DNA of 36,098 bases from a virus. Location: positions 1 to 36,098 of IMG/VR virus record IMGVR_UViG_3300031918_000088, one strand, 5' to 3'. Below are positions 6,831 through 31,262 of the stretch, piece after piece. The notes beneath the pieces were generated by a model that did no database searches, was not told the DNA's origin, and was given only the letters and a program-made list of their open reading frames with translations. A program made the position numbers and the translations under genes. Within the stretch, counting starts at the first letter, position 1, and each line of letters opens with the position of its first letter.

Positions 6831-6865
6831 CAATGATAAAACAGGTTGCCCACCTTAAAAAGGAC
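6831..6865 (-). promoter_or_regulatory. late phage promoter P8 (GTCCTTTT-19-TATCATTG)
   Basis: On the minus strand GTCCTTTT (6858-6865, preceded by T) is followed after exactly 19 bases by TATCATTG (6831-6838), 28 bases before the ATG at 6802. Same motif and spacing as seven other sites in the late region. Confidence 0.8.
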
Positions 6866-6932
6866 AGAAACCAATTTTACTTCCTGAAAAAATTATTACC
6901 CGCAATTTGTTTCGAAATGTTTCCAAGTCGAA

Positions 6933-7175
6933 CTAAGCCGTTAAATCTTTTACAAGCTCATTAGCTTCCAGTTCTGTCTTGCCGTCTGCAATTAATGCGT
7001 TAACAATTGCAACCTTGTCAGGCACTCCCTCAACGGTTACCAAATCAGCAAAATAACTGACGTGTTCACGTCCTTCATTGTTTGTTGTTTCGCTTCCTTG
7101 TGCAAAACAAAATTCATATTTACCGTCTCCTAAAATCACAATTTGAGGTATCGGACTATCGCTGTATTTTTTCAT
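6933..7175 (-). CDS. small tail-region protein, unknown (80 aa)
   Basis: An 80-residue acidic protein (MKKYSDSPIPQIVILGDGKY...) with a helical end (KTELEANELVKDLTA). It lies between the HNH gene and the last tail gene. Short proteins next to tail-fibre genes are often fibre-assembly helpers, but nothing specific shows that here. Confidence 0.6.
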   Translation of the reverse strand: MKKYSDSPIPQIVILGDGKYEFCFAQGSETTNNEGREHVSYFADLVTVEGVPDKVAIVNALIADGKTELEANELVKDLTA

Positions 7176-7197
7176 AGTTTATTGGAATTGATATGTT

Positions 7198-7854
7198 TCA
7201 TTTATGGATTGAATTGTAGTATCTCTGCTTTTTGTAAGCACTCTCACACGCTTTGCAGTTGTATTTATAAGATGGATTGCCTTTCATTGTTTTTGTTGTG
7301 TGAAAGTCTGTTATGGGTAATTCCTTATTACAAACCCTACATATTTTAAATCCTTCTTTGGGTGTATAAGGTTTTACTTTATTCTTTATCCAATTAGTTA
7401 AAGCGGTTTCATATTTTATAGAGGCAATTTCGGCATTATCATACAGCCCTAAAAAATACCTTTTCCCTTCTATCTGAATTTCAGCACCCCACTTATTATC
7501 CTGACCAAACAGCCTTACACCTCTGTAATTAGATTCTCTATTCTTGCCCCTTGTTGTATTCTCTCTTGTTGGTATCTGCCTTAGATTATAAGCCCTGTTA
7601 TTTGTCTTAACTGAATTAATATGATCTATAACAAGTGTTTTATCCCGATCACCACAAAAGGCATCAAAAACAAGTTGATGTACTACTACTGTTTTTCGCA
7701 CTCCAGGAATTGACAAGGTACATGATTTATACCCTGACATATTAATCCTTTGGCTTAGTTCTATACCCCTGCGTAGGCTCTTTATTGCCCCGTAATTGCT
7801 GACTTCATAAAAGCCCTCAAATCCCGCTATTGATTTCCATTCTATCTTTTCCAT
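7198..7854 (-). CDS. NUMOD4-HNH homing-type endonuclease with AP2-like and zinc domains
   Basis: A 218-residue protein. NUMOD4 occupies about residues 3-30 (WKSIAGFEGFYEVSNYGAIK), the HNH nuclease about 58-95 (H59, D77, H78, N80, N90), an AP2-like DNA-binding segment 108-157 (YRGVRLFGQDNKWGAEIQIE), and a C-terminal zinc ribbon has C172, C175, C200, C203. This is the domain order of free-standing phage homing endonucleases. It breaks the run of tail genes, has no late-promoter motif of its own and lies 140 bases after the stop of the putative variable receptor-binding gene. It is likely a selfish insertion, or may aid gene conversion there. Confidence 0.88.
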   Translation of the reverse strand: MEKIEWKSIAGFEGFYEVSNYGAIKSLRRGIELSQRINMSGYKSCTLSIPGVRKTVVVHQLVFDAFCGDRDKTLVIDHINSVKTNNRAYNLRQIPTRENTTRGKNRESNYRGVRLFGQDNKWGAEIQIEGKRYFLGLYDNAEIASIKYETALTNWIKNKVKPYTPKEGFKICRVCNKELPITDFHTTKTMKGNPSYKYNCKACESAYKKQRYYNSIHK

Positions 7855-7994
7855 AATTGCGATTATTAATTTATGTAAAGATAATCATTTTAATCATAAT
7901 AACGAATCTAATTTAGTTTAATTATTACCGCCACAGATCAGAGCAAGAAACATACAACCTTCAATTTTATTTTTTTTCGTTTTCCGTTTTCGTT

Positions 7995-9233
7995 CTACCG
8001 TGCAAAAAGGCGCGCCCCGACAGGCGTATTCGCACCCGACGCACCGTAATTCGCAGACGCAGACAAAGGACCCGCAACCGCCCCAGAATACGCAGCACCG
8101 CCCGAGAGCAGAGCCCCCCAACCGCTTCCAAAAGCAGGGTTATAAGTGTAGTCGCAAAATTGAGTTGTGCTTGATCCTCCGATTGACTTAGCTATAATAT
8201 CACCTTTATCACCAAACTGGATTGTTTTTATCCATCCGTCCGACGGATGCAGTCCGGCGAATCTTGCGTTAACACTTGTATTGTCAACTATTAGATCAGG
8301 ATTATCGAAAATGTAAACCTCACGAGTAGATGCAAGGTGATTGAAAGAAACACCATCAACCCATTTCCAGAGGTGTCCGAACAGATTTTCAATACCTCTG
8401 TAGCGTGGAACAGTGAATGTCCTATTTATCCCAGCACCTCCAAAGTTTGCGATAACTACCGGAACTTCACCGATGCCGTTTGCAAGAGCGTCACTGGCTC
8501 CACATGTGATAAAAGGATTGTATCCGTTGAATGTAGACCATTCGGCTGAAACTGCCGTTGTAACTCCGTTCCCCAATCCGCCTTTCTTATAGCCTTCGAC
8601 TGTAAGACTATTATCTACAGGTTTTTGAAAGTCAGATGTAGCAAATTCGATCATAAACAGCCACAGTTGCTCCTTGTAAGGATCATAATACTGCTGTTGG
8701 TACCCTACTCCATTTGCTCTTGCGTCAGCCCGAAATGTAGTTTCTGAACGCGATGTTGTTGGAAGTACACCTGCAACACTTGAAAGTTTAGTGCCAACTA
8801 ATCTACCTTCGTAAGAGCTATAAAAACATTTTGAGCTTTTTATAAAACCAACTAAAGGGTATTCGGAAAGTTTTATACGCTCTATATTGCCAACTGTTTC
8901 GTACTTCCAGTAACAATCCTTTGACCTATATGCCATTACATTGCCGTCAACTCCTGTTCTGTTACTTGCCGTTCCGTCTGCTTTCTTAGTCCAGTCATCT
9001 GTTTTCAGATAGTAGTTTACCGACTTATCGGCATTCATCAAAACACCTTTGATAGAATTTTGAACAGGCAAAGTAGCGTGAAGCGACATAAAACCAGTTC
9101 CGGCAATTCGTGTAAAGTCTTTTGATGCAATAGTATTATCGCGTTCAATTCCATACCAGGCGTTCTGGTTCAAAGATGACCAGAGGTGTGCCTTATCCTG
9201 TACCAATAAAGATATATTTCGTGTAATTCCCAT
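7995..9233 (-). CDS. receptor-binding tail protein with DGR-like variable C-type lectin end
   Basis: A 412-residue protein with an N-terminal structural part and a C-terminal lectin-type fold. The region from about 275 (YRGIENLFGHLWKWVDGV) to the end has the FGE-sulfatase/C-type lectin pattern of DGR target proteins, ending GWGALLSGG...VGARLFAR. The last 133 coding bases before the stop (7998-8130) have only about 10 adenines on the coding strand, far below neighbouring genes, and are rich in GCG, GGT and TCT codons. That fits repeated adenine-specific mutagenesis. No reverse transcriptase or template repeat is visible in this window. Host-receptor binding is the likely role. Confidence 0.75.
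   Translation of the reverse strand: MGITRNISLLVQDKAHLWSSLNQNAWYGIERDNTIASKDFTRIAGTGFMSLHATLPVQNSIKGVLMNADKSVNYYLKTDDWTKKADGTASNRTGVDGNVMAYRSKDCYWKYETVGNIERIKLSEYPLVGFIKSSKCFYSSYEGRLVGTKLSSVAGVLPTTSRSETTFRADARANGVGYQQQYYDPYKEQLWLFMIEFATSDFQKPVDNSLTVEGYKKGGLGNGVTTAVSAEWSTFNGYNPFITCGASDALANGIGEVPVVIANFGGAGINRTFTVPRYRGIENLFGHLWKWVDGVSFNHLASTREVYIFDNPDLIVDNTSVNARFAGLHPSDGWIKTIQFGDKGDIIAKSIGGSSTTQFCDYTYNPAFGSGWGALLSGGAAYSGAVAGPLSASANYGASGANTPVGARLFAR
7998..8130 (-). other. candidate DGR variable region (adenine-depleted)
   Basis: C-terminal coding segment of the receptor-binding gene with strong coding-strand adenine depletion and a GC-rich end (GTCGGGGCGCGCC) that could serve as the initiation-of-homing sequence. 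The assignment rests on composition and on the protein fold. The template repeat would have to lie outside this window. Confidence 0.5.
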
Positions 9234-9242
9234 AACCGAAAA

Positions 9243-9527
9243 TTATTTAGAATAAACCTGGTACATACTGGCTCCGGATCCGGTTTTAACCTTGGCGATA
9301 CGCGAAGGGGTAATTTCGTTCACGGTCATGGTGATGGATCCGGAATTACCATATTCATCTTCATATACCAATGCAGCGCCATCAACGCCACGATTTTGTA
9401 TCCAGCTTGGATAATCGAATGTTATTTCGGCCGATACAGTGCCTACCGCTTTAAAACCTCCGGTAACTCCACGCGAGGTGCGGAATGTGTTTGTAAATAT
9501 TTGGGCTAATGATTCCAGGATATTCAT
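9243..9527 (-). CDS. small tail protein, unknown (94 aa)
   Basis: A 94-residue beta-rich protein (...VGTVSAEITFDYPSWIQNRG...) starting 27 bases after late promoter P7 and nine bases before the receptor-binding gene. The pairing suggests a fibre-base or adaptor subunit made together with the receptor-binding protein. No known domain is recognised. Confidence 0.65.
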   Translation of the reverse strand: MNILESLAQIFTNTFRTSRGVTGGFKAVGTVSAEITFDYPSWIQNRGVDGAALVYEDEYGNSGSITMTVNEITPSRIAKVKTGSGASMYQVYSK

Positions 9528-9554
9528 GGTTATATGTTTTTGTTAATTTTCGGA

Positions 9555-9589
9555 CAATGTTACTACCCGTTTCTTTTTTTTAAAAGGAC
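9555..9589 (-). promoter_or_regulatory. late phage promoter P7 (GTCCTTTT-19-TAACATTG)
   Basis: GTCCTTTT (9582-9589 on the minus strand, preceded by T), a 19-base spacer that begins with eight A residues, and TAACATTG (9555-9562). The ATG at 9527 lies 27 bases downstream. It should drive the small tail protein and the receptor-binding protein. Confidence 0.8.
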
Positions 9590-9613
9590 ATTTTTAAAAC
9601 AGTATGCTTACAC

Positions 9614-9943
9614 CTATAATTTATCCCATAACTCTTTGTTTTTTGTGAGTTTCAACTTCGCTTTTCGGCGCAGGTATGCTGCATGCTGGCTATGCGGAAT
9701 TTCCTCATAAGGAAATCCGGGAGAAAAACCCCAGTATTCTGGATTTGTAAATACAATACTTTTATCCTGGATCGGTTTTTCATTCTTAACTATTTTTCCG
9801 CAAGGTAATACCCTAACAAAAATATCGGCATAATTGAGTACCGCTTCGTTTCCATCAACCCAGCCCAGGACTTTAAAACCTTTCGTTTTTAGCTTATCAA
9901 TATTTTCCTGCTGTATAGATGGAATAAATGGCGGGGAAATCAT
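9614..9943 (-). CDS. tail-region protein, unknown (109 aa)
   Basis: A 109-residue protein with alternating beta and helical segments (KLKTKGFKVLGWVDGNEAVL) and a basic C-terminus (YLRRKAKLKLTKNKELWDKL). It lies between the FISUMP-type gene and promoter P7, so it is probably the last gene of the P6 unit. No domain is recognised. Confidence 0.55.
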   Translation of the reverse strand: MISPPFIPSIQQENIDKLKTKGFKVLGWVDGNEAVLNYADIFVRVLPCGKIVKNEKPIQDKSIVFTNPEYWGFSPGFPYEEIPHSQHAAYLRRKAKLKLTKNKELWDKL

Positions 9944-9976
9944 TTAAATAATCAGATTAATTTTTAACATTTTTTT

Positions 9977-10702: not shown

Positions 10703-11340
10703 TATATCCTGATTAATTTAAGCTTGCCGCGAATTAATGTGGGCGATCCAGTAATATAAATTCCTGTCGCGGCTAACCATAAATATACCAGATCGCCTGT
10801 ATTTACAGTTTCGTTTTCACCGGTTCGGGCTCCCACTTCGGTGATGTCGGTATTTATTACAAACCCGTCTAATCCAAGTACGGCGGTTTCATTGCAAACA
10901 ATCCAGGGGAATAAGGTACCGTCATCCGTTTGCATAATAGCACTAATAATCTTGTAGGGATAACTAGCCTTAATATCTAAAATATATTTTTGTTCTGTTC
11001 CAAGAGTAATGTCGCGAAATTCGAACGATATATCTTCAATGTTCTTTTCAATATACTCAATCGCCCCCGTAGTCGCATTGGTAGCCACCACCTTATTATA
11101 ATCCGCTTCAGCTGCAGCAGCGTGATCGGCAGCACTGATCATGCTATGTAACCTGGCATGTGTGGCGGGAGGACTTAACTCGGCTCCCAGGCAAACTACC
11201 GATTTAACGCCACCAACAATTTTAAGCCCGTAAAACAAGGCATCAACCCGGTTGTATCCTACATTTAATAAAGCCTGTTCCAGTTGGCTCACGGTAGGCA
11301 CACGGCCGGCAATATTGGATATATAGGGTTCTTTTGCCAT
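10702..11340 (-). CDS. tail structural protein, unknown (212 aa)
   Basis: A 212-residue protein with an alanine-rich helical middle (ISAADHAAAAEADYNKVVAT) followed by a beta-rich half (ISFEFRDITLGTEQKYILDI). The shape suits a fibre or tail-tip subunit. TAATG stop/start overlaps on both sides place it in one transcript with its neighbours under P6. Confidence 0.65.
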   Translation of the reverse strand: MAKEPYISNIAGRVPTVSQLEQALLNVGYNRVDALFYGLKIVGGVKSVVCLGAELSPPATHARLHSMISAADHAAAAEADYNKVVATNATTGAIEYIEKNIEDISFEFRDITLGTEQKYILDIKASYPYKIISAIMQTDDGTLFPWIVCNETAVLGLDGFVINTDITEVGARTGENETVNTGDLVYLWLAATGIYITGSPTLIRGKLKLIRI

Positions 11341-12476
11341 TATACCGATTCAATTACGGGCGTTTGCAAATATTCGAATTCGAGCGCTACGCTTATCAGC
11401 GCGTTATCGTCGTTAAGCTGCTGCATTTTTTCGGTGCGCAGTTCCACAGGTACCAGCACAGCGCCCTGTACTTCATATATTTCGGTACTGGTAAGTAATT
11501 CGTTACTCCAGGCAGTTTCGGCCTTAAGCATATAACCGGTTTCGGCAGCCAGGGTTTGCCTGCCCTGGTTGTACCAGGTTACGCGGTCGGGTACCTGTGC
11601 GCCATCATACCCGGCTTGCCGGCTGGCCGTAAGGCGGTCGGTAGTGGCGTTAATAATTCCGAGGCCGCGGAGCATAAGCTGATCGAACGTGCCGTACGAA
11701 TTACGGAAAAATAACTGCCGCGGATTGGTATACGGCAAACGGTTAATTACAAATGTGCGTGTTTCGCTAACCGGAACTACTACACTTAAATCATTAATAT
11801 AAGCAGCCCTTACCGTATAGCCCGCCACGGTTTTGGTAGGCTCATCGGTCAGTGCCCAGGCTAATACAATAGCCGGGCTGGCATCGAGCTGCACCACTTC
11901 GTATTCGCCTGCCTGGCCCGAGTATGCGCCTTCGAACACGGCGGTAGTGCCATCGGTATACGTAACCGTAAACTGCAGCTGGTACAGGTACTCGACCGAA
12001 TCCTGAACCATATAATACAGGTGGATGATTTCGGCCGGCAATACTTTACGCACCTGGTTAGGGTACCAGGTTAAAAACGGCTTATGGGCAACAATATAAT
12101 CGTTAATGGTTCCGCTGAAATCGTGCTTCCAGTGCGGTATGCGGGCCGGCATAATACGATACTCAGAGGTAGTAAGTTCATTGTGGCTGGTGGGTGGCGT
12201 TCCATAACGTTCGCCGAATACAAAGGCCTGCAGCGGGAATGCCTGCGCGTGTATGGCAGGCACGGTGAGCGATGCGGGCAGTACCGGTTTATCGCGCACA
12301 AAATCGGAAAGTTCGAAGGTAACTTTATGCGCCGTGTCGGGTTCAATGCTGTCGCCGATGGTGCCTACCATACCGGTGATATGGCACAGGGAAGTATAAT
12401 CGGTAGTTAATTGGAACACTACCGGCATACGGGCGGCAATAAGCGTGGGAGGTGATTTAATTATAGTAAGGGCCAT
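11340..12476 (-). CDS. tail protein downstream of tape measure (378 aa)
   Basis: Start taken at the ATG at 12476 (MALTIIKSPPTLIAARMPVV), 22 bases after promoter P6; a longer frame would run through the promoter. The protein is beta-rich throughout. Its place right after the tape measure gene is where distal tail (Dit-like) proteins sit in siphophages. That role is inferred from position only. Confidence 0.7.
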   Translation of the reverse strand: MALTIIKSPPTLIAARMPVVFQLTTDYTSLCHITGMVGTIGDSIEPDTAHKVTFELSDFVRDKPVLPASLTVPAIHAQAFPLQAFVFGERYGTPPTSHNELTTSEYRIMPARIPHWKHDFSGTINDYIVAHKPFLTWYPNQVRKVLPAEIIHLYYMVQDSVEYLYQLQFTVTYTDGTTAVFEGAYSGQAGEYEVVQLDASPAIVLAWALTDEPTKTVAGYTVRAAYINDLSVVVPVSETRTFVINRLPYTNPRQLFFRNSYGTFDQLMLRGLGIINATTDRLTASRQAGYDGAQVPDRVTWYNQGRQTLAAETGYMLKAETAWSNELLTSTEIYEVQGAVLVPVELRTEKMQQLNDDNALISVALEFEYLQTPVIESV

Positions 12477-12482
12477 GGGGAT

Positions 12483-12497
12483 GTACGATTTACGATT
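12483..12497. repeat. isolated GTACGATTTACGATT repeat
   Basis: GTACGATTTACGATT lies in the leader between promoter P6 and the ATG at 12476. It matches the core of the 14-bp tandem repeat at 17167-17236. Confidence 0.6.
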
Positions 12498-12498
12498 G

Positions 12499-12533
12499 CA
12501 AAGATGATTTAGCTGATGTGTTTTAAAAAGGAC
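12499..12533 (-). promoter_or_regulatory. late phage promoter P6 (GTCCTTTT-19-CATCTTTG)
   Basis: GTCCTTTT (12526-12533, preceded by T), 19 bases, CATCTTTG (12499-12506), then ATG at 12476. It begins two bases beyond the tape measure stop, with no terminator in between. Confidence 0.8.
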
Positions 12534-12534
12534 A

Positions 12535-15123
12535 TTACATAGCCGTTGAATCTTCGGCATACTTATCTTTTTTCTGCAGGTCCTTTAGTTTTTGATAATT
12601 AAGCTGAACACCCTCCTGTTGAAGCTGCTGCAGCAACTTTATATTTTCATTCATTAATGCCAATAAAGCAGGATTTGAAATGTCGGATGCCGGATGTTGC
12701 ATATCCAATGTAGCCCGGTCGGGTACCCGCCCGCTATAGTGCTGCGGCACGGCGCGTATGGCTTCCAGTATCTCCGGGTAGTTCATGGTAATATTGCGCG
12801 AGCGCAGGTGATCAATTACAATTTCGCTGCCATGATCGGCTATTAACGTGGGGTGCGTATACATGCCGGTAGTGGCATTGCCGGCATAAGGCACATTGGT
12901 ATATTGCCGGCCATCGAGGGCGCCGGTAACGTTGCGGCCGGCAAAGAACTGGGGGACTGGCTGAGATGCAATTACAGCTATTTGAGCCGCTCCGGCCACA
13001 CCTGCCAATATCATTGCAGGTATATTAGCCGGAGGCATTACTCTGTTGGCTGAAGCAATTGATAGCGCAGTATTAATAACAGCTTGAATTATATCTGCTG
13101 CTTTCTGCTTTTTAAATGCGTCCTGTTTAAGTTTTTTAGCTTTCGCATCATATTTAGCATTAATTGCTTCTTTTTCAGCTTCTGTAAGATTTTTATTGCT
13201 TAACTCTTTTTGCCGTTGCTTTTCGAGTAAATTATTTTGATTATCATACTCAGCCTGTTGGCGGCTTGCTACTATATTAAAAATGGCCTCATTTGTTATT
13301 TTTGCTGATTCAAGTACAGTATTTTTAACTTCGCTTTCCTTTTTATCTTTGCTTTCAATATCTGTTAGTGCGCCTTTAATTTTATGACCCATTGATTTTT
13401 CAACTCCAGCAGCGGCCTGCGCATCTGATAATGCTAATAATGCGGCCTCTTCGTCTTCGATCAGTTTGGTTGCGATTTTACGAGCTTCGTTATCCAATAA
13501 TCTCTTTTGCGTAGCATTCCATTCCATTTCGGTATTTACACTCACGGCCATATCAAGCTGTCCAAGCGATTTAACCGCTTCATCAATGGTTTTCTTTTTT
13601 GCTACCAAGGCATTATATACAGCAGTTTCAGCAGCGGATAATGCTCCACCCGATTTTATTTTTTCAACATAAGAATCGATTTGGGATGACAGTTTTTCAT
13701 AGGCCGTTTTTTGCTTATCAGTTTCAGATGTCTCTTTCTTTGTCGGATCTATCAACTCATTAAGTATTGCTATTTTTGATTTTGTAGTGTTTACTATCGC
13801 CTGCTCCAGTTGCTGCTTTACTTTTAAGTCGTTCATTTCTTTTGAGGTAATAACTCCATTGCCATCATTACGCATCCCGGTCGTATTGTTTTCAATTTTT
13901 TTCTTAGTTGCATCAACTAACGCTTGCTGTTGCATCATCTTTTTATTCAAATCATCGATCCCGTTTTTCTTGATTAAATTCCATCGTGTTTCGTCTTTCT
14001 GTGCTTTCTCCATTTCCGAACGAAAATTTGAAACGGAAACAGCCGTTGATTGAATACCATCCTTCTGCGCGTTCCATGCATCGCGGCTGCCACCAAATGA
14101 AAAGAAAACGTCGGTAACATCTTTTAATATTGTTAATATTGAAGTAAGCTTTTTTATTACCCAATCAAGAGGGCCATTAGTTCCAAACCCAAGTGACTCT
14201 TTAAATTCGCCCCATGCCTGTGTCATTTTTGAAACTGCAGTTGCACTTTCTTCGGCAGTACCTTTATATTTTGTTAAAACCAAATCAATAGCTGCACCAT
14301 TCTTTAACTGGGTAGAACTTAGGTTTTTGAAATCAGAATCCAGGCGGGGCAAAGTCTTATCCATTTGGCCTACCAATGTTTTATTAAGTGCCAAATAGGA
14401 TTGCTGGAGTTCTTTACCCGTTATGGATGATAATTGAATTGAAGCTTCAGTAATTTTCTTTACTTCTTCGGTACTTTTACCGGAAGTAACTCCAAGCATT
14501 TGTATCTGACTGATAACAGAGTCTTCGATACCGGTTGCCATTTGCAATTTACTCGATTGTTCATTGAGTTGTTGAAAAGCATCAATATTGCCTCTTAATG
14601 CAAATAGTAATCTGCGGTCTGCAACTCTTTGTTCATCGGCAGCATCATACAATTTTTTAAATGCATAAAATACACCTGTAATTGCGGCAGCCCATCCCAA
14701 AATTTTAGCATAAGCCATCCCCATTTCACCGAATGATTTTGAAAAAGCGGATCCGGTTTGATTTGCAGTGCCTTTTAATTCTTTTAACCGGACTCCAACG
14801 GCATCAGCTTCCTTTTTAAGATCGGCATATCCTTTCATGCTCGGGCTCATATGTGCCAATACGGCATTGAGTTCTGCCTGTCGCATTTTTAATTCCTTGA
14901 GGCTAAGGTTAGCGATGCCAATGGATTCATATACTTTATCCATTTTGAGTTTAACCTGTATCATTTCCTGCTTGAGCCGTTCCCAATCGGCAGTGCCTGT
15001 AGCAAACTTTTTTTGTTCGGTAGCCAGTGATTTATAATCACCTTCAAGTTTACGCAGTTGCTGGCGCGCCTGGTCGTTGTTAATTACTATATCCAACTGT
15101 ACGCGGTCGATCTTTAAACTCAT
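12535..15123 (-). CDS. tail tape measure protein
   Basis: The 862-residue protein has the tape measure pattern: coiled-coil N-terminus (QARQQLRKLEGDYKSLATEQ), a hydrophobic segment near 135-160 (ILGWAAAITGVFYAFKKLYD), long helical stretches rich in Lys, Gln and Glu, and a second hydrophobic region near 690-730 (INTALSIASANRVMPPANIP). By the usual 1.5 A per residue rule the tail would be about 130 nm long, which indicates a long-tailed siphovirus. The gene has its own late promoter (P5) and the preceding unit ends in a terminator, so it is expressed separately from its neighbours. Confidence 0.92.
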   Translation of the reverse strand: MSLKIDRVQLDIVINNDQARQQLRKLEGDYKSLATEQKKFATGTADWERLKQEMIQVKLKMDKVYESIGIANLSLKELKMRQAELNAVLAHMSPSMKGYADLKKEADAVGVRLKELKGTANQTGSAFSKSFGEMGMAYAKILGWAAAITGVFYAFKKLYDAADEQRVADRRLLFALRGNIDAFQQLNEQSSKLQMATGIEDSVISQIQMLGVTSGKSTEEVKKITEASIQLSSITGKELQQSYLALNKTLVGQMDKTLPRLDSDFKNLSSTQLKNGAAIDLVLTKYKGTAEESATAVSKMTQAWGEFKESLGFGTNGPLDWVIKKLTSILTILKDVTDVFFSFGGSRDAWNAQKDGIQSTAVSVSNFRSEMEKAQKDETRWNLIKKNGIDDLNKKMMQQQALVDATKKKIENNTTGMRNDGNGVITSKEMNDLKVKQQLEQAIVNTTKSKIAILNELIDPTKKETSETDKQKTAYEKLSSQIDSYVEKIKSGGALSAAETAVYNALVAKKKTIDEAVKSLGQLDMAVSVNTEMEWNATQKRLLDNEARKIATKLIEDEEAALLALSDAQAAAGVEKSMGHKIKGALTDIESKDKKESEVKNTVLESAKITNEAIFNIVASRQQAEYDNQNNLLEKQRQKELSNKNLTEAEKEAINAKYDAKAKKLKQDAFKKQKAADIIQAVINTALSIASANRVMPPANIPAMILAGVAGAAQIAVIASQPVPQFFAGRNVTGALDGRQYTNVPYAGNATTGMYTHPTLIADHGSEIVIDHLRSRNITMNYPEILEAIRAVPQHYSGRVPDRATLDMQHPASDISNPALLALMNENIKLLQQLQQEGVQLNYQKLKDLQKKDKYAEDSTAM

Positions 15124-15140: not shown

Positions 15141-15175
15141 CGAATGTAATCCGCCGCTACCGTAGCGAAAAGGAC
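15141..15175 (-). promoter_or_regulatory. late phage promoter P5 (GTCCTTTT-19-TACATTCG)
   Basis: GTCCTTTT (15168-15175, preceded by T), 19 bases, TACATTCG (15141-15148), 17 bases before the tape measure ATG at 15123. It begins four bases after a terminator hairpin. Confidence 0.82.
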
Positions 15176-15179
15176 ATAA

Positions 15180-15207
15180 AAAATCCCGCTCATTGGGGCG
15201 GGATTTT
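15180..15207 (-). terminator. intrinsic terminator before tape measure promoter
   Basis: A ten-base perfect stem (AAAATCCCGC / GCGGGATTTT) with an eight-base loop. On the minus strand it is followed by T residues that run into ATGTCC of promoter P5. It closes the long portal-to-lysis unit. Confidence 0.85.
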
Positions 15208-20111: not shown

Positions 20112-21191
20112 TTACGACATAAAGAAAGATTGCGTGGTATCGGTTGTTTCTTCCACAACCGGGGCTACCGGCAGCAACGCTATAATATAATTCTGCAGAG
20201 GGATCAGTTCGCGGCGCCCGTCGCGCTCAAGCAATGACGATACCGCAATGCGATCGGATGATAAGGCCGGCTTCGACTGCTTTACGTCCATGGCCATAAA
20301 ACTTTGCACTACTGCGTCGGGAAGCAGTTCCACAGGGAGGCGTTTCAAAGCTACCGACATCGTTAGCAACACAACCGGAACTTTTGAAAGTTCATAAATT
20401 TCTTTGCTTTCGGTATTGTCGGCCACGTTCGGGTCGTTACTGTCGCCTGTTAAATCAAGCTCTTCGTCTTTAATCAGTTCACGTATTAAATCGTACCGGG
20501 TTGAGCCGATCACCGGGCGTATATATCGCAATTCCACCTCCCTGATAAACGGGACCAAGGCCAGGTAAAGCCGCCTGGATGCATTAATCGGGAATATGTA
20601 ATCAAACTCCCGGGCCGAATTAATAAACAGGTCCTTCAGTGCCGAATACGTGGCCGACGACCGCCAGGTATCTTCGATCGTATTGGCTGTAGCTTCACCG
20701 GTAAGAGCTTCCTGGGTTGGCACGTACGGAATAGGCACCTGTTCGTCGAGCCATTCGAGCAACAGATCGGTAGCTTCGTGGGCCAGGTCGAGCAGGCTGG
20801 CATTATCGCGGGTAAGCATCCACTCAAATGCAGGTTTCTGTTGATCGGTTACCGTAATTAGCCGGCCCGCTTCCGAATGCGATAAATCGTTAAGCGGGGC
20901 AAACCTACGGTATGCATTCAGTATAACTGGCAATTGTATAAGCCTTACCAGTTCGTCGAGCAATACCAGTTGCGGATCGGGCGTAGTTTCCGGAACGGGA
21001 GTTACCTGGTAATCGTCCGATTGGTAATGATTTTCAGCCAGTTTAAAAACTTCGGGGCCGATAACCCGTTTTATATCGCGTTCGGCAATGGTTACATAGG
21101 TTAACAGGTTTTCGAAATTATTCGATTTGTAAATAAACCCGAGCAACTCTTTTGTTTCGACAGCGCCGTTGGTTGATTTGTTAAAGATCAT
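20112..21191 (-). CDS. head-tail adaptor-type protein (359 aa)
   Basis: A 359-residue, mostly helical protein that directly follows the portal gene with an ATGA overlap. It has two similar helical halves: KELLGFIYKSNNFENLLTYV...GPEVFKLAE and later REFDYIFPINASRRLYLALV...VIGSTRYDLI. Each resembles the helical core of gp6-type connector adaptors. A tandem adaptor would be larger than the usual single-domain form. Assignment rests on this and on location. Confidence 0.6.
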   Translation of the reverse strand: MIFNKSTNGAVETKELLGFIYKSNNFENLLTYVTIAERDIKRVIGPEVFKLAENHYQSDDYQVTPVPETTPDPQLVLLDELVRLIQLPVILNAYRRFAPLNDLSHSEAGRLITVTDQQKPAFEWMLTRDNASLLDLAHEATDLLLEWLDEQVPIPYVPTQEALTGEATANTIEDTWRSSATYSALKDLFINSAREFDYIFPINASRRLYLALVPFIREVELRYIRPVIGSTRYDLIRELIKDEELDLTGDSNDPNVADNTESKEIYELSKVPVVLLTMSVALKRLPVELLPDAVVQSFMAMDVKQSKPALSSDRIAVSSLLERDGRRELIPLQNYIIALLPVAPVVEETTDTTQSFFMS

Positions 21192-22576
21192 GGTTTATTG
21201 TTTTTTATGCGATCGGCCGGAGCGGTTTGCGCTTCAGTTATAACTGCATCGTGATAAAATCCGAGTTTCAGTCCCTTACCCGGGAAATTGGCGGCTATGG
21301 CATTATTGATATCGCGGCATACGATGGATTCGGGAATATCCACACCCGTAAGCAGGTAAAGTTTAAACGCATACAGCTGTTCCGATCCGCTTGGTAGGTT
21401 GCCATCGAAACTGATATTGCTCAGCGCCGGGTGCAACCCGATACCGGCGGTAGTTTCGAGGCTGGCCTGTTTGGCTATGTTTACCTGGGCATCAATAAAA
21501 TCTTTCACTTTCTGATCCAGCACATCAACGGTCCAGCCTACATATTTACCCGATGTTTCGTCGAACAGTTCCTCTGTAGTCAGGAATTTCCCAACGTTGT
21601 CGACACCGCGCAATACATCGGCAAACTCCTGCATTTTTTTCTTCTTGAAATCAGTAAGCAGCTTATCGGCATAAGCAACGCCGTCGCGGTTGCATTTATC
21701 TTTCAGTTCCTGCTCGGCATTATCCCAGTAAATGCCTGGCACTTTAATGTGATATTTAATGGCAGCCGAATTTTTATTAAAATTGCTCAGCAGTTTGGCA
21801 ATGCTGGTAGCCAGCCTTATCCATCCGAGCGAACCGTAATAACTGGGGCGGCTGTAATCGTTACTCAGCGCAAACGAATACAGGTTGCTGTAGCGCATAG
21901 TTACCGGCCAGGCAAAAGGATCCTGTTCCGAATACACCGGGTAGGCACGCAGGCCATACTTCCAGGGCTGCGCGTAATCGCCTACAATAATATTATTAAT
22001 CAGGTGATACTGGTCGGGCCATTCGAGGCGGGCAAACATACTGCTTACATGCTCAAGTTTAGTAATAAATCCAGGCTCGCCGATACGGAAGCCGCGATTG
22101 CGGAAATACTTAGTATAATGGCCGTTCATATGGCGGAATTCGATGGTTGCCTTTTGCAGGTAATCCTCAAAATTCCACGACCGGAGCCAGCCTTCCACTT
22201 CCGGATCCGAATCAAAATATTTTTTCCGTTCCCCGTTTTCGAATTTTAATTTATACAGAGCCGGACCCTGACCCCAAAGCAACGAGGCTTGCTTATCGAG
22301 TATGCCAGGCGTGAGGTTATTTTCGTCCAGTAATATACGTAAATCGGTAGGCAATTGATTTTGTTCGCCATGCGGAACAATATCAAAGTTCCCGATTTTC
22401 ATCGGCAACAATGCCCGTATGTTGGTATAAAATGGCAATACACCTGGCTGTGCAAAAGTTTGTGATCCTGATACTTCAAAAGTATATACTTCGCTTCCGG
22501 CAGTAATTATACCGGAATTTCCATGATCATGAACCTGGATGTCGTTTTTTTTATATCCGATGGGTTGATTGTTCAT
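21188..22576 (-). CDS. phage portal protein
   Basis: A 462-residue protein with portal features: a charged clip-like segment (ENGERKKYFDSDPEVEGWLR), a helical stem and an N-terminal part with LDENNLTPGILDKQASLLWG, typical of portal proteins that begin with a DNA-channel arm. It would form the dodecameric ring at one capsid vertex through which DNA is packaged. It follows the 96-aa gene with an ATGA overlap and precedes the adaptor. Confidence 0.8.
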   Translation of the reverse strand: MNNQPIGYKKNDIQVHDHGNSGIITAGSEVYTFEVSGSQTFAQPGVLPFYTNIRALLPMKIGNFDIVPHGEQNQLPTDLRILLDENNLTPGILDKQASLLWGQGPALYKLKFENGERKKYFDSDPEVEGWLRSWNFEDYLQKATIEFRHMNGHYTKYFRNRGFRIGEPGFITKLEHVSSMFARLEWPDQYHLINNIIVGDYAQPWKYGLRAYPVYSEQDPFAWPVTMRYSNLYSFALSNDYSRPSYYGSLGWIRLATSIAKLLSNFNKNSAAIKYHIKVPGIYWDNAEQELKDKCNRDGVAYADKLLTDFKKKKMQEFADVLRGVDNVGKFLTTEELFDETSGKYVGWTVDVLDQKVKDFIDAQVNIAKQASLETTAGIGLHPALSNISFDGNLPSGSEQLYAFKLYLLTGVDIPESIVCRDINNAIAANFPGKGLKLGFYHDAVITEAQTAPADRIKNNKP

Positions 22577-22863
22577 TGTAATATAATTTTAGTTCCGTTG
22601 AAGTACATAAGTAAAGGCTGCCAGCACACGCGCGGTTCCTGGTAGTAGTCGTCCCAATAAAATAACTTGTAATCGGAGTTCCGGATATCGTCTTCTTTGG
22701 CAGCCGGGCGGAGTTTGGCTCGCTTCACGCTGGTTAATCCCTGGGTGCGTCCTGTATTTCGGTTGTAAGTGGCGAACGTAAACGAAAAGAAACCGCTTTC
22801 AGCGGTAATTTTACGCATCATGGCGATTGCCTCGTATAGGGTTATGGTTGTTCGTTCGTCCAT
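22573..22863 (-). CDS. small protein opening the portal operon (96 aa)
   Basis: Start at the ATG at 22863 (MDERTTITLYEAIAMMRKIT), since the longer frame would pass through the promoter and the terminator. Only five bases separate the -7 box of P4 from this ATG, so the transcript may be leaderless. The alternative start at 22821 (MMRKITAES) has a GAGG upstream. The protein is basic in its middle (GLTSVKRAKLRPAAKEDDIR) and aromatic-rich at its end. Function unknown. Confidence 0.65.
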   Translation of the reverse strand: MDERTTITLYEAIAMMRKITAESGFFSFTFATYNRNTGRTQGLTSVKRAKLRPAAKEDDIRNSDYKLFYWDDYYQEPRVCWQPLLMYFNGTKIILQ

Positions 22864-22867
22864 GATG

Positions 22868-22902
22868 CGAAAGTATGATTGTGATAAGGGTAACGAAAGG
22901 AC
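22868..22902 (-). promoter_or_regulatory. late phage promoter P4 (GTCCTTTC-19-TACTTTCG)
   Basis: GTCCTTTC (22895-22902, preceded by T), 19 bases, TACTTTCG (22868-22875). The only one of the eight with C at the last position of the upstream motif. It drives the portal, connector and lysis genes. Confidence 0.82.
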
Positions 22903-22907
22903 AAAAA

Positions 22908-22932
22908 AATCCCCGCTAACCAGGCGGGGATT
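22908..22932 (-). terminator. intrinsic terminator after the exported-protein gene
   Basis: A nine-base perfect stem AATCCCCGC / GCGGGGATT with a seven-base loop, followed on the minus strand by TTTTTT that leads into TGTCC of promoter P4. Confidence 0.88.
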
Positions 22933-22959: not shown

Positions 22960-23373
22960 TTAGGCGATGTCGTACCAGCTAATAGGAAAGACTTCTGTCC
23001 GGTTCGTTCTGTCAATAATCAGTAGTTTGTCTGATCTGCAATTAAGAGCGTTACCTGCTAAGAGAGGATAATCGCTAAATCGAATTATTTTATTAGAGCT
23101 CAGCCACAGTATACTATTAAATACGGGAGGATGCCATATATCGGCGCTATAACCTGTAAGCTCCGCCGATTCGATTGGCATTCCGAGTTCGGGAATAGTG
23201 CCTGCAAAAGGTAGTTCATAAAAAACTACTGCTTCAAGGATATAGGCCGGTTGAACCGGATCTATAGTTTGCGAAACAGTGGCTGAAACCGGATCGCAAT
23301 CCTTAAGCACAGGCCCCGAGGCATAGCACGCCATTCCAATCAGGAGCATGCAAAGTACCAGGAACGTTTTCAT
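22960..23373 (-). CDS. exported (probable lipo-) protein made from its own late promoter
   Basis: A 137-residue protein with an N-terminal signal (MKTFLVLCMLLIGMACYASG); the IGMAC sequence may serve as a lipobox. The mature part is beta-rich (PAYILEAVVFYELPFAGTIP). It is monocistronic, bracketed by promoter P3 and a terminator, between the terminase and portal units. That position is typical of morons, such as superinfection-exclusion or surface-changing proteins, but made late. No family is recognised. Confidence 0.7.
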   Translation of the reverse strand: MKTFLVLCMLLIGMACYASGPVLKDCDPVSATVSQTIDPVQPAYILEAVVFYELPFAGTIPELGMPIESAELTGYSADIWHPPVFNSILWLSSNKIIRFSDYPLLAGNALNCRSDKLLIIDRTNRTEVFPISWYDIA

Positions 23374-23408: not shown

Positions 23409-23443
23409 CGAAACTAACCGGATTTCACCAGGTGTAAAAGGAC
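23409..23443 (-). promoter_or_regulatory. late phage promoter P3 (GTCCTTTT-19-TAGTTTCG)
   Basis: GTCCTTTT (23436-23443, preceded by T), 19 bases, TAGTTTCG (23409-23416); the exported-protein ATG lies 35 bases further on at 23373. Confidence 0.82.
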
Positions 23444-26411: not shown

Positions 26412-26412
26412 A

Positions 26413-27189
26413 TCAGGAGCTCAGCCCTAAAATCCCGTTCACAACAGTAAGTTCAACTTCAAATTTTGCAACACTGGCTTTGCGATCCGAAGTATTTTTA
26501 TGTTCAGGCTGTTCAGCAATCTTTTGCTTTGTACGGGCAATGTTATTCATCAGGTTTTTCTGCAGTTTCACCTGATCGGCTGTGGTCATGTTCCGGATCT
26601 CAAGCATGCGATCGGTAGTGCTGAAAATTACATGCTTGCCAAGGATTTTACCGTTTTCCTTGTAATAATTAAGTTCATCCCATATTTCGCGGTTCTCCAG
26701 GTAATTTTCAACAACTGTAGAGGCTACTTCCTGTAATTCGTCACCCGTAGTAACCTCGAACAGGCGTTTGTGCCCATCCACATAATTGGCATATGCTGTA
26801 AGCATATCGTGTACCAATATTTTAAATTTGTCAGGGCACTTGGGATCGGCCAGAAACGGGAAATCATCGCGCAACCGTATCGTTTTGCGGATTTGTTCCG
26901 GTATTTCGCGGATAAATACTTCTTTTTCTTCAGGAGATACCGGAGTTTCCATAATTTCCTGTTTAGCAGCTAACGAAACCGGCTGTAGCAGCATGATTCT
27001 GAATTCATCAGGCGAAATGCCGCCCTCAATGCGAAGTTGCTCAAGTAATACCCCGAGGTTGTGTTCGGAATATCCCTGGTTGTTCAATGTCCTTTTCAGG
27101 GATAAGGATTTGCCATGCTCTAAATAGAGTTTCAGTCCTCCCGCAAACGACCGGTCCTTGTTCAGATAGTTTAAGATTTTTGCTTTCAT
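26413..27189 (-). CDS. phage protein, unknown (258 aa)
   Basis: Start at the ATG at 27189, 14 bases after promoter P2; the longer frame is excluded because it would contain the promoter. The 258-residue protein is helical (KSLSLKRTLNNQGYSEHNLG; later VVENYLENREIWDELNYYKE). It opens the terminase unit. Function unknown. Confidence 0.65.
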   Translation of the reverse strand: MKAKILNYLNKDRSFAGGLKLYLEHGKSLSLKRTLNNQGYSEHNLGVLLEQLRIEGGISPDEFRIMLLQPVSLAAKQEIMETPVSPEEKEVFIREIPEQIRKTIRLRDDFPFLADPKCPDKFKILVHDMLTAYANYVDGHKRLFEVTTGDELQEVASTVVENYLENREIWDELNYYKENGKILGKHVIFSTTDRMLEIRNMTTADQVKLQKNLMNNIARTKQKIAEQPEHKNTSDRKASVAKFEVELTVVNGILGLSS

Positions 27190-27203
27190 GATAAATATTT
27201 TCA

Positions 27204-27238
27204 CAAAGGTGCAATTGCATGCCTGCTTATAAAAGGAC
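27204..27238 (-). promoter_or_regulatory. late phage promoter P2 (GTCCTTTT-19-CACCTTTG)
   Basis: GTCCTTTT (27231-27238, preceded by T), 19 bases, CACCTTTG (27204-27211). Drives the terminase unit. Confidence 0.82.
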
Positions 27239-27255
27239 AACCCATAAAACACGAA

Positions 27256-27273
27256 ATCCCGATAAATCGGGAT
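27256..27273 (-). terminator. terminator before the terminase unit
   Basis: Stem ATCCCGA / TCGGGAT with a four-base loop, followed on the minus strand by TTCGTGTTTT. It ends the protease-capsid unit 28 bases after its last stop and precedes P2. Confidence 0.7.
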
Positions 27274-27301
27274 CCGTGCGGCAAGGAAGGCAGGCAGGAG
27301 A

Positions 27302-28114
27302 CTAGGTGCGGGAGAGTTCGAGATACTTGTACGTTGAAGCGCCATCTTTGAAGGCTTTCACGGTAAGAGTGGCACCTGCTATGGCTGTCCATGCGGTTCC
27401 GTTTTTCAACAGGAAGCTTCCGCCGGTAATGGTCGAAGGATGCGCTCCTCCGGATCCAAGCAGTTTGTAAACGAGTCCGTCGCTGGCATTGGCAAGCGCG
27501 GTAATGGTAGCAGCTGCTGAAGTTCCGGTGGTAAGCTGATATTCACCCTGTCCGTTGGTAACATCAACGGTAGTTGCATCGGCAGCCTCGGTATCGGTAA
27601 CAGTATCAAAAGACAGCGTTCCCTGGTAATCACATTCAATCGGTCCCTTTTGGGTCGATGCAAATGTAAAAACAGTATGATCAGTATCTTTGGTGTCCTG
27701 TTTTTCCGAAACCATCTGCAGCGGAGCGCATGGAGTGCCGTACAACATTTTTTTTGTGTCGGAGCAACGCTGGATGATAATTCCAACATTACGGTTCAGC
27801 CAATTTGCATCGAATTCGAGAATAGCGGCTTCGCTACCCGGATGCTCGAATTTTACATTTTGGATATATCCCTTTTTATCAGGATCGCCTTCACCTTTGT
27901 GCCCGCACTCAATAGTATTTTGAGTTGCATACAATTTGATCATGTAGGCACCGGGCTTAAAGGTAATATTATCAACCGAAACATGGCCATTCTCATCCCT
28001 TGCAGGATAAGTAAGGTAATCGTCCATATCAAATATAACGATTTCGGCCTTTTTGTTTCCGCCAACACCGAGGTTCATTCCCGGTTTGTTGACATTTACT
28101 TTTACATATGACAT
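27302..28114 (-). CDS. virion protein sharing a repeat domain with the capsid (270 aa)
   Basis: A 270-residue protein; the N-terminal 150 residues form a beta-rich body. The last ~90 residues (SAAATITALANASDGLVYKL..., ending YKYLELSRT) match the domain that occurs twice at the capsid protein C-terminus (ITTFDDAVTNVLYTVYG... ending FYEINRA). A decoration or head-completion protein is likely; a tail tube role is also possible. Confidence 0.65.
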   Translation of the reverse strand: MSYVKVNVNKPGMNLGVGGNKKAEIVIFDMDDYLTYPARDENGHVSVDNITFKPGAYMIKLYATQNTIECGHKGEGDPDKKGYIQNVKFEHPGSEAAILEFDANWLNRNVGIIIQRCSDTKKMLYGTPCAPLQMVSEKQDTKDTDHTVFTFASTQKGPIECDYQGTLSFDTVTDTEAADATTVDVTNGQGEYQLTTGTSAAATITALANASDGLVYKLLGSGGAHPSTITGGSFLLKNGTAWTAIAGATLTVKAFKDGASTYKYLELSRT

Positions 28115-28146
28115 CTTAAAAATGTATTTGAGATTACAAAAGCGCA

Positions 28147-28168
28147 GGTACCGGATTGCTCCGGTACC
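28147..28168 (-). terminator. hairpin between capsid and downstream gene
   Basis: Perfect eight-base arms GGTACCGG / CCGGTACC with a six-base loop, 15 bases after the capsid stop. On the minus strand it is followed by a weak T run (CTGCGCTTTTG). It may reduce transcription beyond the capsid gene and so set a high capsid-to-partner ratio. Confidence 0.5.
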
Positions 28169-28182
28169 GTTGCTCAGTTTGG

Positions 28183-30303
28183 CTATGCGCGGTTGATCTC
28201 GTAGAATTTGCCGTCGGTGGCCGATTTACGAATGCTGATCCAGTGACCGGTTGAAAGTGTCATCGCTGCAGTAAGAACGAAGTTCCCGCTGTTGGCAATA
28301 GTGGAAGCATTTGTTGAACCGGCACCATAAACGGTATATAAAACGTTGGTAACTGCATCATCAAATGTTGTGATAGCCGTTGCCGTTGTATTGGCATTGG
28401 TAACAAATGTTGAACCACCCAATACGCTTGGAGTTGCATCGTCAGCGGCAAAAGCGTTGGCAATGGAAGCCGGGTTAATACGTGAAAGTTCGAGGAACTT
28501 TCCATCCGAACGTTTTACAACTTCCAGCACTTCGTCCAAACCAGGATTCCAAGCAGCTGCAATCAGTGAAAAATCACCGGTTTTAGCGATTGTGATTGGA
28601 TTGGTTACATTTCCGCATTTGATGCGGATAATATCACCTGTCACCGCATCATCGATGGTGGTAATAACTGTAGCGCCTGTATTGGCTACCGAAACAAGCG
28701 ATTTATGTACGGATACGCTTGGGCTGGTATCATCCTTTGTCATCGGGATGTAATAATCAGCAGGAAGATCCACGTCGTTGACAAAAATAAGCTGTGTGCT
28801 GTAGTCGGTCGGGATTGCAGCTGCAGAAGCATATTTTTTACCAACCAGGTAAGCCCAGAGGCTTTCTTTCCAGTTCGACCATACTTTCAATGCCCAATCC
28901 TGTTGTTCGAAATTGAAAGCAACCATTTCGCCTGGCTGATCTTCGAACAAACGGATATTGCCGGCCAGTGTCCAGATAAAGCGTTTTGATTCGCCCATAT
29001 TCGGAACAACTTCAATAGCTACATTCGGGTATTCCTTTACATATTTGATGCCCGGTTTATAGTCCTGGTTTAAACCGTACAGTGTTTCGTTATTGCGAAC
29101 GTAAGCAGTGTAAGCATCAGGGCTCATGTAAAGAACTACATTTCCCGAATCACGAACAGCAATAGGAACATACGAAGTACCACGACGAACATAATCGCTT
29201 ATGGTTGTATCGGTCCATTCGCCCATAACGAACGGGCGGATTTTGAACAATGCGATCTGATTTTTTATAAACTGGCGCAATCCGTTGGAAGCACCGATGG
29301 CTGTACCAAGTACATTGGCCGTTGGATTTGACCTGATACCCGAAACGCGGCGTATTTCACGCTCGTTCTGAAGTTTCTTGGTAGTTTCAACCATCACGAA
29401 TTCAATGAACGACCATTTCATCACGTTGGATCCTTCGCGGTTAAGATAACCGAGCCAGTTTTTCTCCAGCGCTTTCAGATCGGTGAATTTATGTGCGAAC
29501 ATAACACCGTACATGGTAATCACTTCGGGTTCGAATTTGTACGCGCCCTGAACCATGCTGTCAAAAGTACTTCCAATCGTATTTTCGGCCTGTGAAAAAT
29601 CACCGGTCAAAAACATGTTTACTAATACGGCCTGATCCTGATACCCGCTTTCCAGAGGGAAAATGGTTTCGAGACTTGGCAATCCCATAAGGAACGACTG
29701 AATACGATCCTGTTTGCGTACACGGTAATAATCGCCCAGGTCGGATGTAAGACTTGCATAGTCCATGCTCGAAGCTTTCGGTACCGGTATTTCGATGCCG
29801 AATTTTTTAAGCATCAGGTCGGAATAAGCACGTTTGTTATACCCGTGTTTATCGTCGATTGCCATATAAGGCTGCTGAACGCCACCCAGGAACTTATCGT
29901 TCTGATCGTCCCATGCATTACCATCCACAATGATTACTTTTTTAGGAGCAGGTTCATCTTCAGATTTTGAACTCAGGAGTGTAATCACGTCTTTTTGGGA
30001 TTTCAAAGTGGAATTTAATTGAACCTTTTCGGCTTCGAGTGCGGTTTTAGCATCGGCAAGTGTTACCTTTTCCTTTTCTGCTAATTGGAGTTTTGCCTGC
30101 AGGTCAGCTATAACCGAGGCATTTGTATCGAGATATTCGTCAGCATTGGCCTCGAAGGTTCCGAGGAGCTTGGCAACGAAAGCATCACCGAAAGTAGCGG
30201 TGAGCGTTGTTTTCTGTTCTTCGGTCAACGTGTTTTTGCCTTCGTATTGAGCAAAAGCAGTTATCCCGAGCAGGGTCAGAACAGTGGCCCACATTTTACG
30301 CAT
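28183..30303 (-). CDS. major capsid protein with fused scaffold-like N-terminus and two C-terminal repeat domains
   Basis: The 706-residue protein follows the protease gene by three bases and has the length and place of a fused HK97-type capsid protein. Residues 1-18 are hydrophobic (MWATVLTLLGITAFA, followed by Q) like a signal peptide. Residues 60-112 form a coiled coil (LQAKLQLAEKEKVTLADAKT), the likely scaffold removed by the S49 protease. The middle (about 120-520) is the capsid body. The last two ~90-residue blocks are repeats of one domain, each ending in a F-(L/Y)-E-(L/I)-(S/N)-R motif. Capsid identity is inferred from order, size and the scaffold layout. Confidence 0.8.
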   Translation of the reverse strand: MRKMWATVLTLLGITAFAQYEGKNTLTEEQKTTLTATFGDAFVAKLLGTFEANADEYLDTNASVIADLQAKLQLAEKEKVTLADAKTALEAEKVQLNSTLKSQKDVITLLSSKSEDEPAPKKVIIVDGNAWDDQNDKFLGGVQQPYMAIDDKHGYNKRAYSDLMLKKFGIEIPVPKASSMDYASLTSDLGDYYRVRKQDRIQSFLMGLPSLETIFPLESGYQDQAVLVNMFLTGDFSQAENTIGSTFDSMVQGAYKFEPEVITMYGVMFAHKFTDLKALEKNWLGYLNREGSNVMKWSFIEFVMVETTKKLQNEREIRRVSGIRSNPTANVLGTAIGASNGLRQFIKNQIALFKIRPFVMGEWTDTTISDYVRRGTSYVPIAVRDSGNVVLYMSPDAYTAYVRNNETLYGLNQDYKPGIKYVKEYPNVAIEVVPNMGESKRFIWTLAGNIRLFEDQPGEMVAFNFEQQDWALKVWSNWKESLWAYLVGKKYASAAAIPTDYSTQLIFVNDVDLPADYYIPMTKDDTSPSVSVHKSLVSVANTGATVITTIDDAVTGDIIRIKCGNVTNPITIAKTGDFSLIAAAWNPGLDEVLEVVKRSDGKFLELSRINPASIANAFAADDATPSVLGGSTFVTNANTTATAITTFDDAVTNVLYTVYGAGSTNASTIANSGNFVLTAAMTLSTGHWISIRKSATDGKFYEINRA

Positions 30304-30308
30304 AATAA

Positions 30309-31205
30309 TTAAGGATTTGAGTTAAAAAATGATTTAATTGAAAATTCCAGTCCAAGTTTATACGCCAGGTTAACTGCATATTCGAAGGTGTTTATTTCGT
30401 GGGCAAGTCCTACTTCAATTGCCTGGGTGGCATTGAATATCTTACCGGTAAAAACATCAGAGGCCGGATCAATGCCAAGATTGTCCTGTATAGCCTGATG
30501 AAAAAATTCGTTTACATAATTCAGATCTTCCCGGATGGAAGCGGTACGCTGATCCATAGGAAGCGATTCGTCGAGGAGCGTGCGGATCTCTATGTTTTTG
30601 TTTGTCGACTTATCGGCATAAATATCGAAAACATCAATATTGAGTTTCTTTTTCAGAAAACCGGCAATATCCATAATACTTGCCATGGTGCCGATGGATC
30701 CAAGCCGGTCGAGCGGTGAACTGGCTATGATCCTGCCGGTTCCCGAAATAAGCCACATGGCTGCGCTTGCTGCCATATTCATTACAAAAGATACGGATGG
30801 TTTTTGCATGCTTTTGATAGCAGCTGCAGCGATATCGGTATAAAAAACCATTCCTCCCGGGCTGTTAACCAGGAATACCACGGCAATAATATTCGGATTA
30901 GATTCGGCCTGATCAATAAACTGAACCAACTCCATGGTACGCCACGAAAGTATTTCGCTTTGAATAGGAATAACAGCAACTGAATTTTCAGGTACATTCA
31001 TATCCTGAAGATCATACCTGTTTACCAGGTCGATAGTTCCGGATGAGGCTGCAATAAGATAAGGTTTAGCGCGATCCTCTTCGGATGCATCAAAATCTAT
31101 TTTGGTACCCGATAAAAACGCCAAAAAAGCCGGGAAATAATTATATACTACTTCCTGGCTAATAAGCCAACGCGCATTTAGAATTTGGGATATACGATTG
31201 ATCAC
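30309..31205 (-). CDS. S49/ClpP-like head maturation protease
   Basis: A 298-residue protein with the S49 (SppA/SohB-type) protease pattern: NSPGG at 114-118, the nucleophile S147 in NMAASAAMWL and GSIG at 169-172. In phages this family cuts scaffold and capsid precursors during head maturation; here the next gene is the capsid protein with a coiled-coil N-terminus. It starts 22 bases after promoter P1. Confidence 0.88.
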   Translation of the reverse strand: MINRISQILNARWLISQEVVYNYFPAFLAFLSGTKIDFDASEEDRAKPYLIAASSGTIDLVNRYDLQDMNVPENSVAVIPIQSEILSWRTMELVQFIDQAESNPNIIAVVFLVNSPGGMVFYTDIAAAAIKSMQKPSVSFVMNMAASAAMWLISGTGRIIASSPLDRLGSIGTMASIMDIAGFLKKKLNIDVFDIYADKSTNKNIEIRTLLDESLPMDQRTASIREDLNYVNEFFHQAIQDNLGIDPASDVFTGKIFNATQAIEVGLAHEINTFEYAVNLAYKLGLEFSIKSFFNSNP

Positions 31206-31227
31206 AGCATTGTTTTAAATAATGCTG

Positions 31228-31262
31228 CAATATTAAGGCGTGGCTATTGTGGTTAAAAGGAC
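31228..31262 (-). promoter_or_regulatory. late phage promoter P1 (GTCCTTTT-19-TAATATTG)
   Basis: GTCCTTTT (31255-31262; preceded by A, not T), 19 bases, TAATATTG (31228-31235). Drives protease and capsid genes. Confidence 0.78.

Follow-up and report, generated by a model that had tools for sequence, protein, structure and literature searches.

Gene layout of the window and its late strand

The window analysed here is the whole 36,098-bp IMG/VR virus record IMGVR_UViG_3300031918_000088, which its gene content and relatives place among the temperate Bacteroidota siphophages near Duneviridae. Its near relatives are Flavobacterium laban6-1 and 6H and Cellulophaga Ingeline, and its more distant ones Bacteroides BT-TP2, Porphyromonas prophages and Polaribacter Leef. 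Duneviridae-like membership is met, as terminase, portal, adaptor and head genes are common to the window, Ingeline, laban6-1 and 6H. The late genes occupy the minus strand, from about 32.3 kb down to 4.6 kb. The features that concern us are the following.

1810..2349, minus strand: LuxR/GerE-type regulator, rejected below as reader of the late motif
2615..2645, minus strand: presumed early promoter, canonical TTTG-N19-TATATTTG, before gene 2352-2588
2706-3068, plus strand: cI-like repressor
3351-4604, plus strand: integrase
6831..6865, minus strand: putative late promoter 8, GTCCTTTT-N19-TATCATTG, before gene 4601-6802
9555..9589, minus strand: putative late promoter 7, GTCCTTTT-N19-TAACATTG, before gene 9243-9527
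12499..12533, minus strand: putative late promoter 6, GTCCTTTT-N19-CATCTTTG, before gene 11340-12476
15141..15175, minus strand: putative late promoter 5, GTCCTTTT-N19-TACATTCG, before the tape-measure gene 12535-15123
22868..22902, minus strand: putative late promoter 4, GTCCTTTC-N19-TACTTTCG, before gene 22573-22863 and the portal gene 21188-22576
23409..23443, minus strand: putative late promoter 3, GTCCTTTT-N19-TAGTTTCG, before gene 22960-23373
27204..27238, minus strand: putative late promoter 2, GTCCTTTT-N19-CACCTTTG, before the ATG at 27189 of gene 26413-27189
31228..31262, minus strand: putative late promoter 1, GTCCTTTT-N19-TAATATTG, before the prohead protease gene 30309-31205
31281..31787, minus strand: acidic protein, encoded between the proposed activator gene and the protease gene
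31769..32275, minus strand: proposed late activator, 168 aa, pI 9.1, predicted C-terminal helix-turn-helix (HTH; helices 113-123 and 128-162)

Beyond these features, a cluster of AAATACAA(A/T)TTT boxes in both orientations lies just upstream of the proposed activator gene (32398-32690) and might be an operator array or origin iterons. A second tyrosine recombinase (32945-33778) adjoins the late region; it is homologous to Ingeline gp28 and Leef gp38, located at the same place, and its family occurs in 20 of 24 phages carrying the motif described below, a count that may include integrases caught by the same profile. Around small ORFs near this recombinase, attC-like TTAGCA...TGCTAAC repeats were noticed by eye at about 33830-33950 and 34950-35100, conceivably marking a cassette-like region.

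Eight sites of one geometry

The known Bacteroidota sigma-ABfr promoter carries TAnnTTTG at -7 and TTTG at -33. An initial annotation of the window had reported eight minus-strand sites, each composed of GTCCTTT(T/C), a 19-nt spacer and an 8-mer resembling the -7 element, and we find its coordinates, strand, boxes and spacing to be exactly right. Its 8-mer upstream box required correction: the conserved core is GTCCTT, since positions 7-8 vary in relatives, and the spacing is recast accordingly, with the core 21 nt ahead of the -7 box. The sites had also been called intergenic throughout; three of them (27204, 22868 and 12499) fall within mechanically extended ORFs, yet 5' of the start that the promoter implies. 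The claimed distance of 5-35 nt to a start codon held nearly, the measured range being 4-35 nt, and the start codon is ATG in seven cases and GTG in one (30309-31205).

This arrangement is far from random expectation. All eight matches to the pattern GTCCTT-N21-YAnnWTYG in the window are on the late strand, where 200 dinucleotide shuffles average 0.05 matches and never exceed 1. The box GTCCTTTY by itself occurs nine times on both strands, where 2.4 are expected and none of 100 shuffles reaches nine; its minus-strand matches are precisely the eight sites, and the plus strand has one extra. A scan of the window with a 16-column matrix returned the eight sites and no other match above 11 bits. 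The -7 boxes of all eight are each exactly one base off TAnnTTTG.

Individual sites are retained in relatives. Site 1 is conserved in the related loci L009, L010 and L013, site 2 in L008-L010 and L012, and site 4 in L013 and L014; locus L016 has an equivalent of site 2, GTCCTTTT-N19-TACCTTTG, upstream of its terminase.

Two structural features accompany some of the sites. Terminator-like hairpins with T-runs are present immediately 5' of sites 4 and 5, adjoining the GTCCTT box (22868-22930 and 15141-15205), and in several IMG/VR records such a hairpin lies inside the spacer with its T-run overlapping the -7 box. We infer from the sequence that this placement reflects tight packing of the end of one operon against the next promoter. 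At site 1 the stretch from the -7 box to the start codon holds a dyad, CAGCATT-N9-AATGCTG (31205..31227, minus strand). Among 52 unique first late sites after the activator gene, 24 have a dyad across the -7 box and initiation region with arm pairing of at least 8/9, compared with 4 of 103 sites elsewhere and roughly 1 of 52 in shuffled sequence; its sequence differs among phages. Because the 5' arm is often upstream of +1, a DNA operator is a likelier explanation of the first-site dyad than an RNA hairpin.

The initial annotation spoke of eight late genes, which understates the class, as it occurs widely in Bacteroidota phages from gut, oral and marine sources, many IMG/VR records among them. 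A matrix built from the window sites and a few related ones gave strong matches at late gene starts in Ingeline (five), BT-TP2, two Porphyromonas phages and two human faecal phages, and weak ones in Polaribacter phage Leef. The same scan found no convincing site array in laban6-1 and 6H, and a de novo motif search of these two genomes did not find a recognisable box of their own. On the minus strand of laban6-1 (L017), at 36325, TTCCTTTT-N19-TAACTTTG stands before gp46, one base from the class; it could be a relic or a sign of changed specificity.

The spacing was quantified in 107 loci fetched solely for encoding a relative of the candidate activator. On the activator strand, 101 GTCCTT boxes have a -7 box at offset 27, and no other offset from 18 to 44 has more than one; in the same loci neither the opposite strand nor scrambled boxes give an offset-27 peak. 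Allowing one deviation in the -7 box, about 286 unique sites are found at offset 27 (135 with perfect and 151 with one-off boxes), against roughly 5-11 at each of eight other offsets (0-6 and 5-9, respectively). The logo of the 101 sites reads GTCCTT(Y)-N21-YAnnTTTG(C), its spacer being uninformative, and between paired sites the boxes are 97% identical, the spacers 46%. As a check, it had been proposed to count matrix hits inside genes and between them: among 229 unique sites from the window and its relatives, 199 have an ATG-led ORF of at least 50 aa within 90 nt downstream, at a median of 18 nt. The sites, their spacing and their conservation are thus shown.

Could the sites be some other phage signal, or a chance pattern, rather than promoters? 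In favour of this view, the promoter reading rests on sequence alone, with no transcript data. Against it stand the tie to the -7 box, exact to one bp, the gene starts 4-35 nt downstream, and the fixity of the boxes while spacers diverge, and we consider it all but excluded.

A second alternative is that the phage hijacks a host factor, either a regulator or an alternative sigma, which recognises GTCCTT. Since the sites carry the -7 box of the host primary sigma, participation of host polymerase is very probable. However, 396 Bacteroidota genomes contain only 31 scattered matches to GTCCTTYN20TANNTTTGC, with no fewer for the reversed control; there is therefore no excess, and this is not a host promoter class. 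Nor would one expect an alternative sigma to use the -7 box of the primary one. A host reader is thus very unlikely, and the specificity of the class for phages is shown.

A candidate reader upstream of the protease gene

If a phage protein reads GTCCTT, which one is it? The gene 31769-32275 is one of the small genes before the protease gene, its homologs occupy the same place in nearly all relatives, and iterated profiles find the family in divergent phages as well. The family (gp8 in BT-TP2) is basic (median pI 9.4). Both AlphaFold2 models (pLDDT 90 and 93) end in a pair of helices resembling an HTH, with the near-invariant residues K136, N137, Y138, R140 and W141 on the predicted second helix; R140 is invariant in the widest alignment. 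No usable match to the family was found in Pfam, PHROG or NCBIfam (nothing above chance in the first two), and the best match among PDB sequences was no better than E 0.03. Foldseek searches of the PDB with the two models gave nothing below E 0.5 and no known DNA-binding fold; in the viral library only the Leef homolog was significant, and gp33-like matches were not.

Given that a profile search of 396 Bacteroidota genomes yielded few homologs, co-occurrence of protein and motif was tested on virus records. IMG/VR was scanned by motif alone, and 50 of the records were then checked for the protein, which avoids circularity. The family is present in 26 of these 50 records and in none of 50 chosen with the reversed box (Fisher p ~3e-10), all of which have a single site. 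Among the motif-chosen records, those with at least two sites had it in 22 of 30 cases and single-site ones in 4 of 20. All sites share the strand of the gene in 24 of the 26 positive records. Of the 30 multi-site records, eight lack a significant family match, and several of these are fragments. The link between the motif and this gene family is thus shown.

When 33 window genes were compared with 24 motif phages, six families occurred in 24/24: terminase, portal, adaptor, one head protein, the acidic relative 31281 and the 31769 family, the last being the only basic non-structural one. This panel was partly chosen for carrying the 31769 family, which leaves the 50-record test as the sole independent one. 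The 31769 protein is not entirely set apart by co-occurrence from the equally universal genes of the lineage, such as terminase, portal and head genes.

The acidic protein 31281..31787 was considered as a regulator and set aside: it is as universal as the 31769 family, but acidic and related to a head protein. An iterated profile built from it also catches the family of the head protein 27302-28114, an apparent relatedness, and the protein is likely a virion component.

Another phage protein might still read the motif, for example the LuxR/GerE protein 1810-2349 or an early gene missing from the record. The former has a clear DNA-binding domain; as for the latter, the window record probably does not cover the whole genome and so misses some early genes, which were not screened. 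The LuxR/GerE family, however, occurs in just 11 of the 24 motif phages: Bacteroides BT-TP2 and the Porphyromonas phages have no member, yet laban6-1 and 6H, both of which lack the motif, do. Typical LuxR sites are dyads, which GTCCTT is not. We therefore regard a different phage reader as unlikely.

It may also be asked whether the 31769 protein binds DNA at all, or instead modifies RNA polymerase to prefer GTCCTT or acts elsewhere, for instance in antitermination. The fixed spacing to the -7 box suggests a reader bound to the holoenzyme, and no solved structure is related to the fold. The strongly basic C-terminus and the near-invariant K-N-Y-x-R-W patch on the second HTH helix nevertheless fit direct DNA reading, and this alternative, too, is judged unlikely.

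The 31769-32275 family is, in our judgement, the probable reader of GTCCTT, a likely assignment made without binding data. Some relatives bear on it less clearly. In laban6-1 (gp42) and 6H the homolog has a diverged recognition helix and there is no recognisable motif, which could fit protein and site changing together; the argument is weak, as their own box was not found. The Ingeline member is very divergent and lies inside a late operon, therefore simple timing fails there.

A putative activator-dependent late promoter class

The reading we favour, with a probability of roughly 0.77, is that the eight sites are phage late promoters served by host sigma at the -7 box and by an activator of the 31769 family at GTCCTT, transcription starts and binding being inferred. 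With the -7 element at -12 to -5, as in F. johnsoniae (PMC6847099), GTCCTT is located at -39 to -34. A canonical -33 TTTG would begin 4 nt 3' of the G of GTCCTT, as it does in the presumed early promoter 2645-2615; it is absent from all eight late sites, and in 101 sites a G occupies its last position in only 9%. The early promoter is the only intergenic canonical TTTG-N19-TAnnTTTG on the coding strand of the window; early and late promoters thus differ at -33 and share the -7 element.

In our model the host primary sigma (sigma-ABfr) would read TAnnTTTG, and the activator would read the non-palindromic GTCCTT through its predicted C-terminal HTH, taking over the role of -33 recognition and probably touching sigma region 4 or an adjacent surface of RNA polymerase. 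This contact is proposed because the spacing is fixed to one bp; like DNA binding itself, it is inferred. The activator gene would be expressed with early or middle genes, and its product would then turn on the neighbouring protease promoter and the scattered late promoters, a timing that is likewise inferred. One-off -7 boxes and the missing TTTG may be expected of promoters silent without an activator, and a single asymmetric hexamer at one exact distance would suit a monomeric reader held against polymerase. From the lost TTTG, the one-off -7 boxes and the exact spacing we infer a replacement of region-4 recognition; homology to the T4 system is not claimed. The initial annotation's proposal that a phage activator replaces -33 recognition is accordingly supported and gains a concrete candidate, whereas for its eight co-timed transcripts both co-timing and starts remain inferred.

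A bolder reading, for which we see as much reason to doubt as to believe, is that an unrecognised activator family of unsolved fold reprograms the Bacteroidota primary sigma by substituting for recognition through region 4. It would then control late genes generally in many phages from gut, mouth and sea, and the divergent laban6-1 and 6H members would read another box.

A phage activator acting at scattered host-polymerase promoters is a known kind of control; new here are the motif class, its wide spread among the phages of the phylum and the unnamed protein family. In the open-access literature we found no earlier report of the motif or of a Bacteroides phage late promoter, and isolate papers for Ingeline, Leef and the Porphyromonas phages do not discuss promoters. 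Bacteroidota phages, though common in gut and mouth, thus had no published late-promoter class or late activator in the literature searched. With a fixed motif and a candidate activator linked to it, late gene control becomes directly testable. Late operons can be called by motif from sequence alone, and the class may serve as a marker for lytic induction in transcriptome data and, with its activator, as a candidate orthogonal pair of promoter and activator in Bacteroides genetics. That GTCCTT has a fixed position also bears on how strongly Bacteroidota polymerase uses the -33 region.

How does the class compare with known systems? It shares the -7 element with sigma-ABfr promoters, and the early promoter of the window phage also keeps the -33 TTTG at N19. 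The late GTCCTT overlaps the TTTG position and extends upstream of it, with the G of TTTG mostly missing. For host promoters, Baez 2019 (PMC6847099) did not discern the -33 element clearly, and the spacing is reported to be variable (Ryan 2020, PMC7366714), unlike the fixed spacing of the late class.

Among phage systems, the middle promoters of T4 offer an analogy: in MotA/AsiA sigma appropriation (PMC6755090) a phage box replaces the -35 element and host sigma keeps reading -10, as may occur in the late class. The MotA box is centred at -30 and GTCCTT at about -36.5, and T4 applies MotA/AsiA to middle genes, unlike the late class described here; no sequence or significant fold link joins the 31769 family to MotA or AsiA. 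The late promoters of Mu, with C and Mor (PMC4461284, PMC4390567), likewise combine one small phage activator with several scattered late promoters. Mor sits as a dimer on inverted repeats centred at -43.5, and in Mu the C protein has its site upstream of -35 (same references), whereas GTCCTT is a single asymmetric hexamer with no conserved second half-site in the logo, and no Pfam or PHROG family above chance connects the 31769 family to Mor/C. In T4 late transcription small phage proteins on the host polymerase (gp55/gp33/gp45) switch on late genes, as proposed here. T4 late transcription brings its own sigma; in the late class, by contrast, the -7 box of the host is kept.
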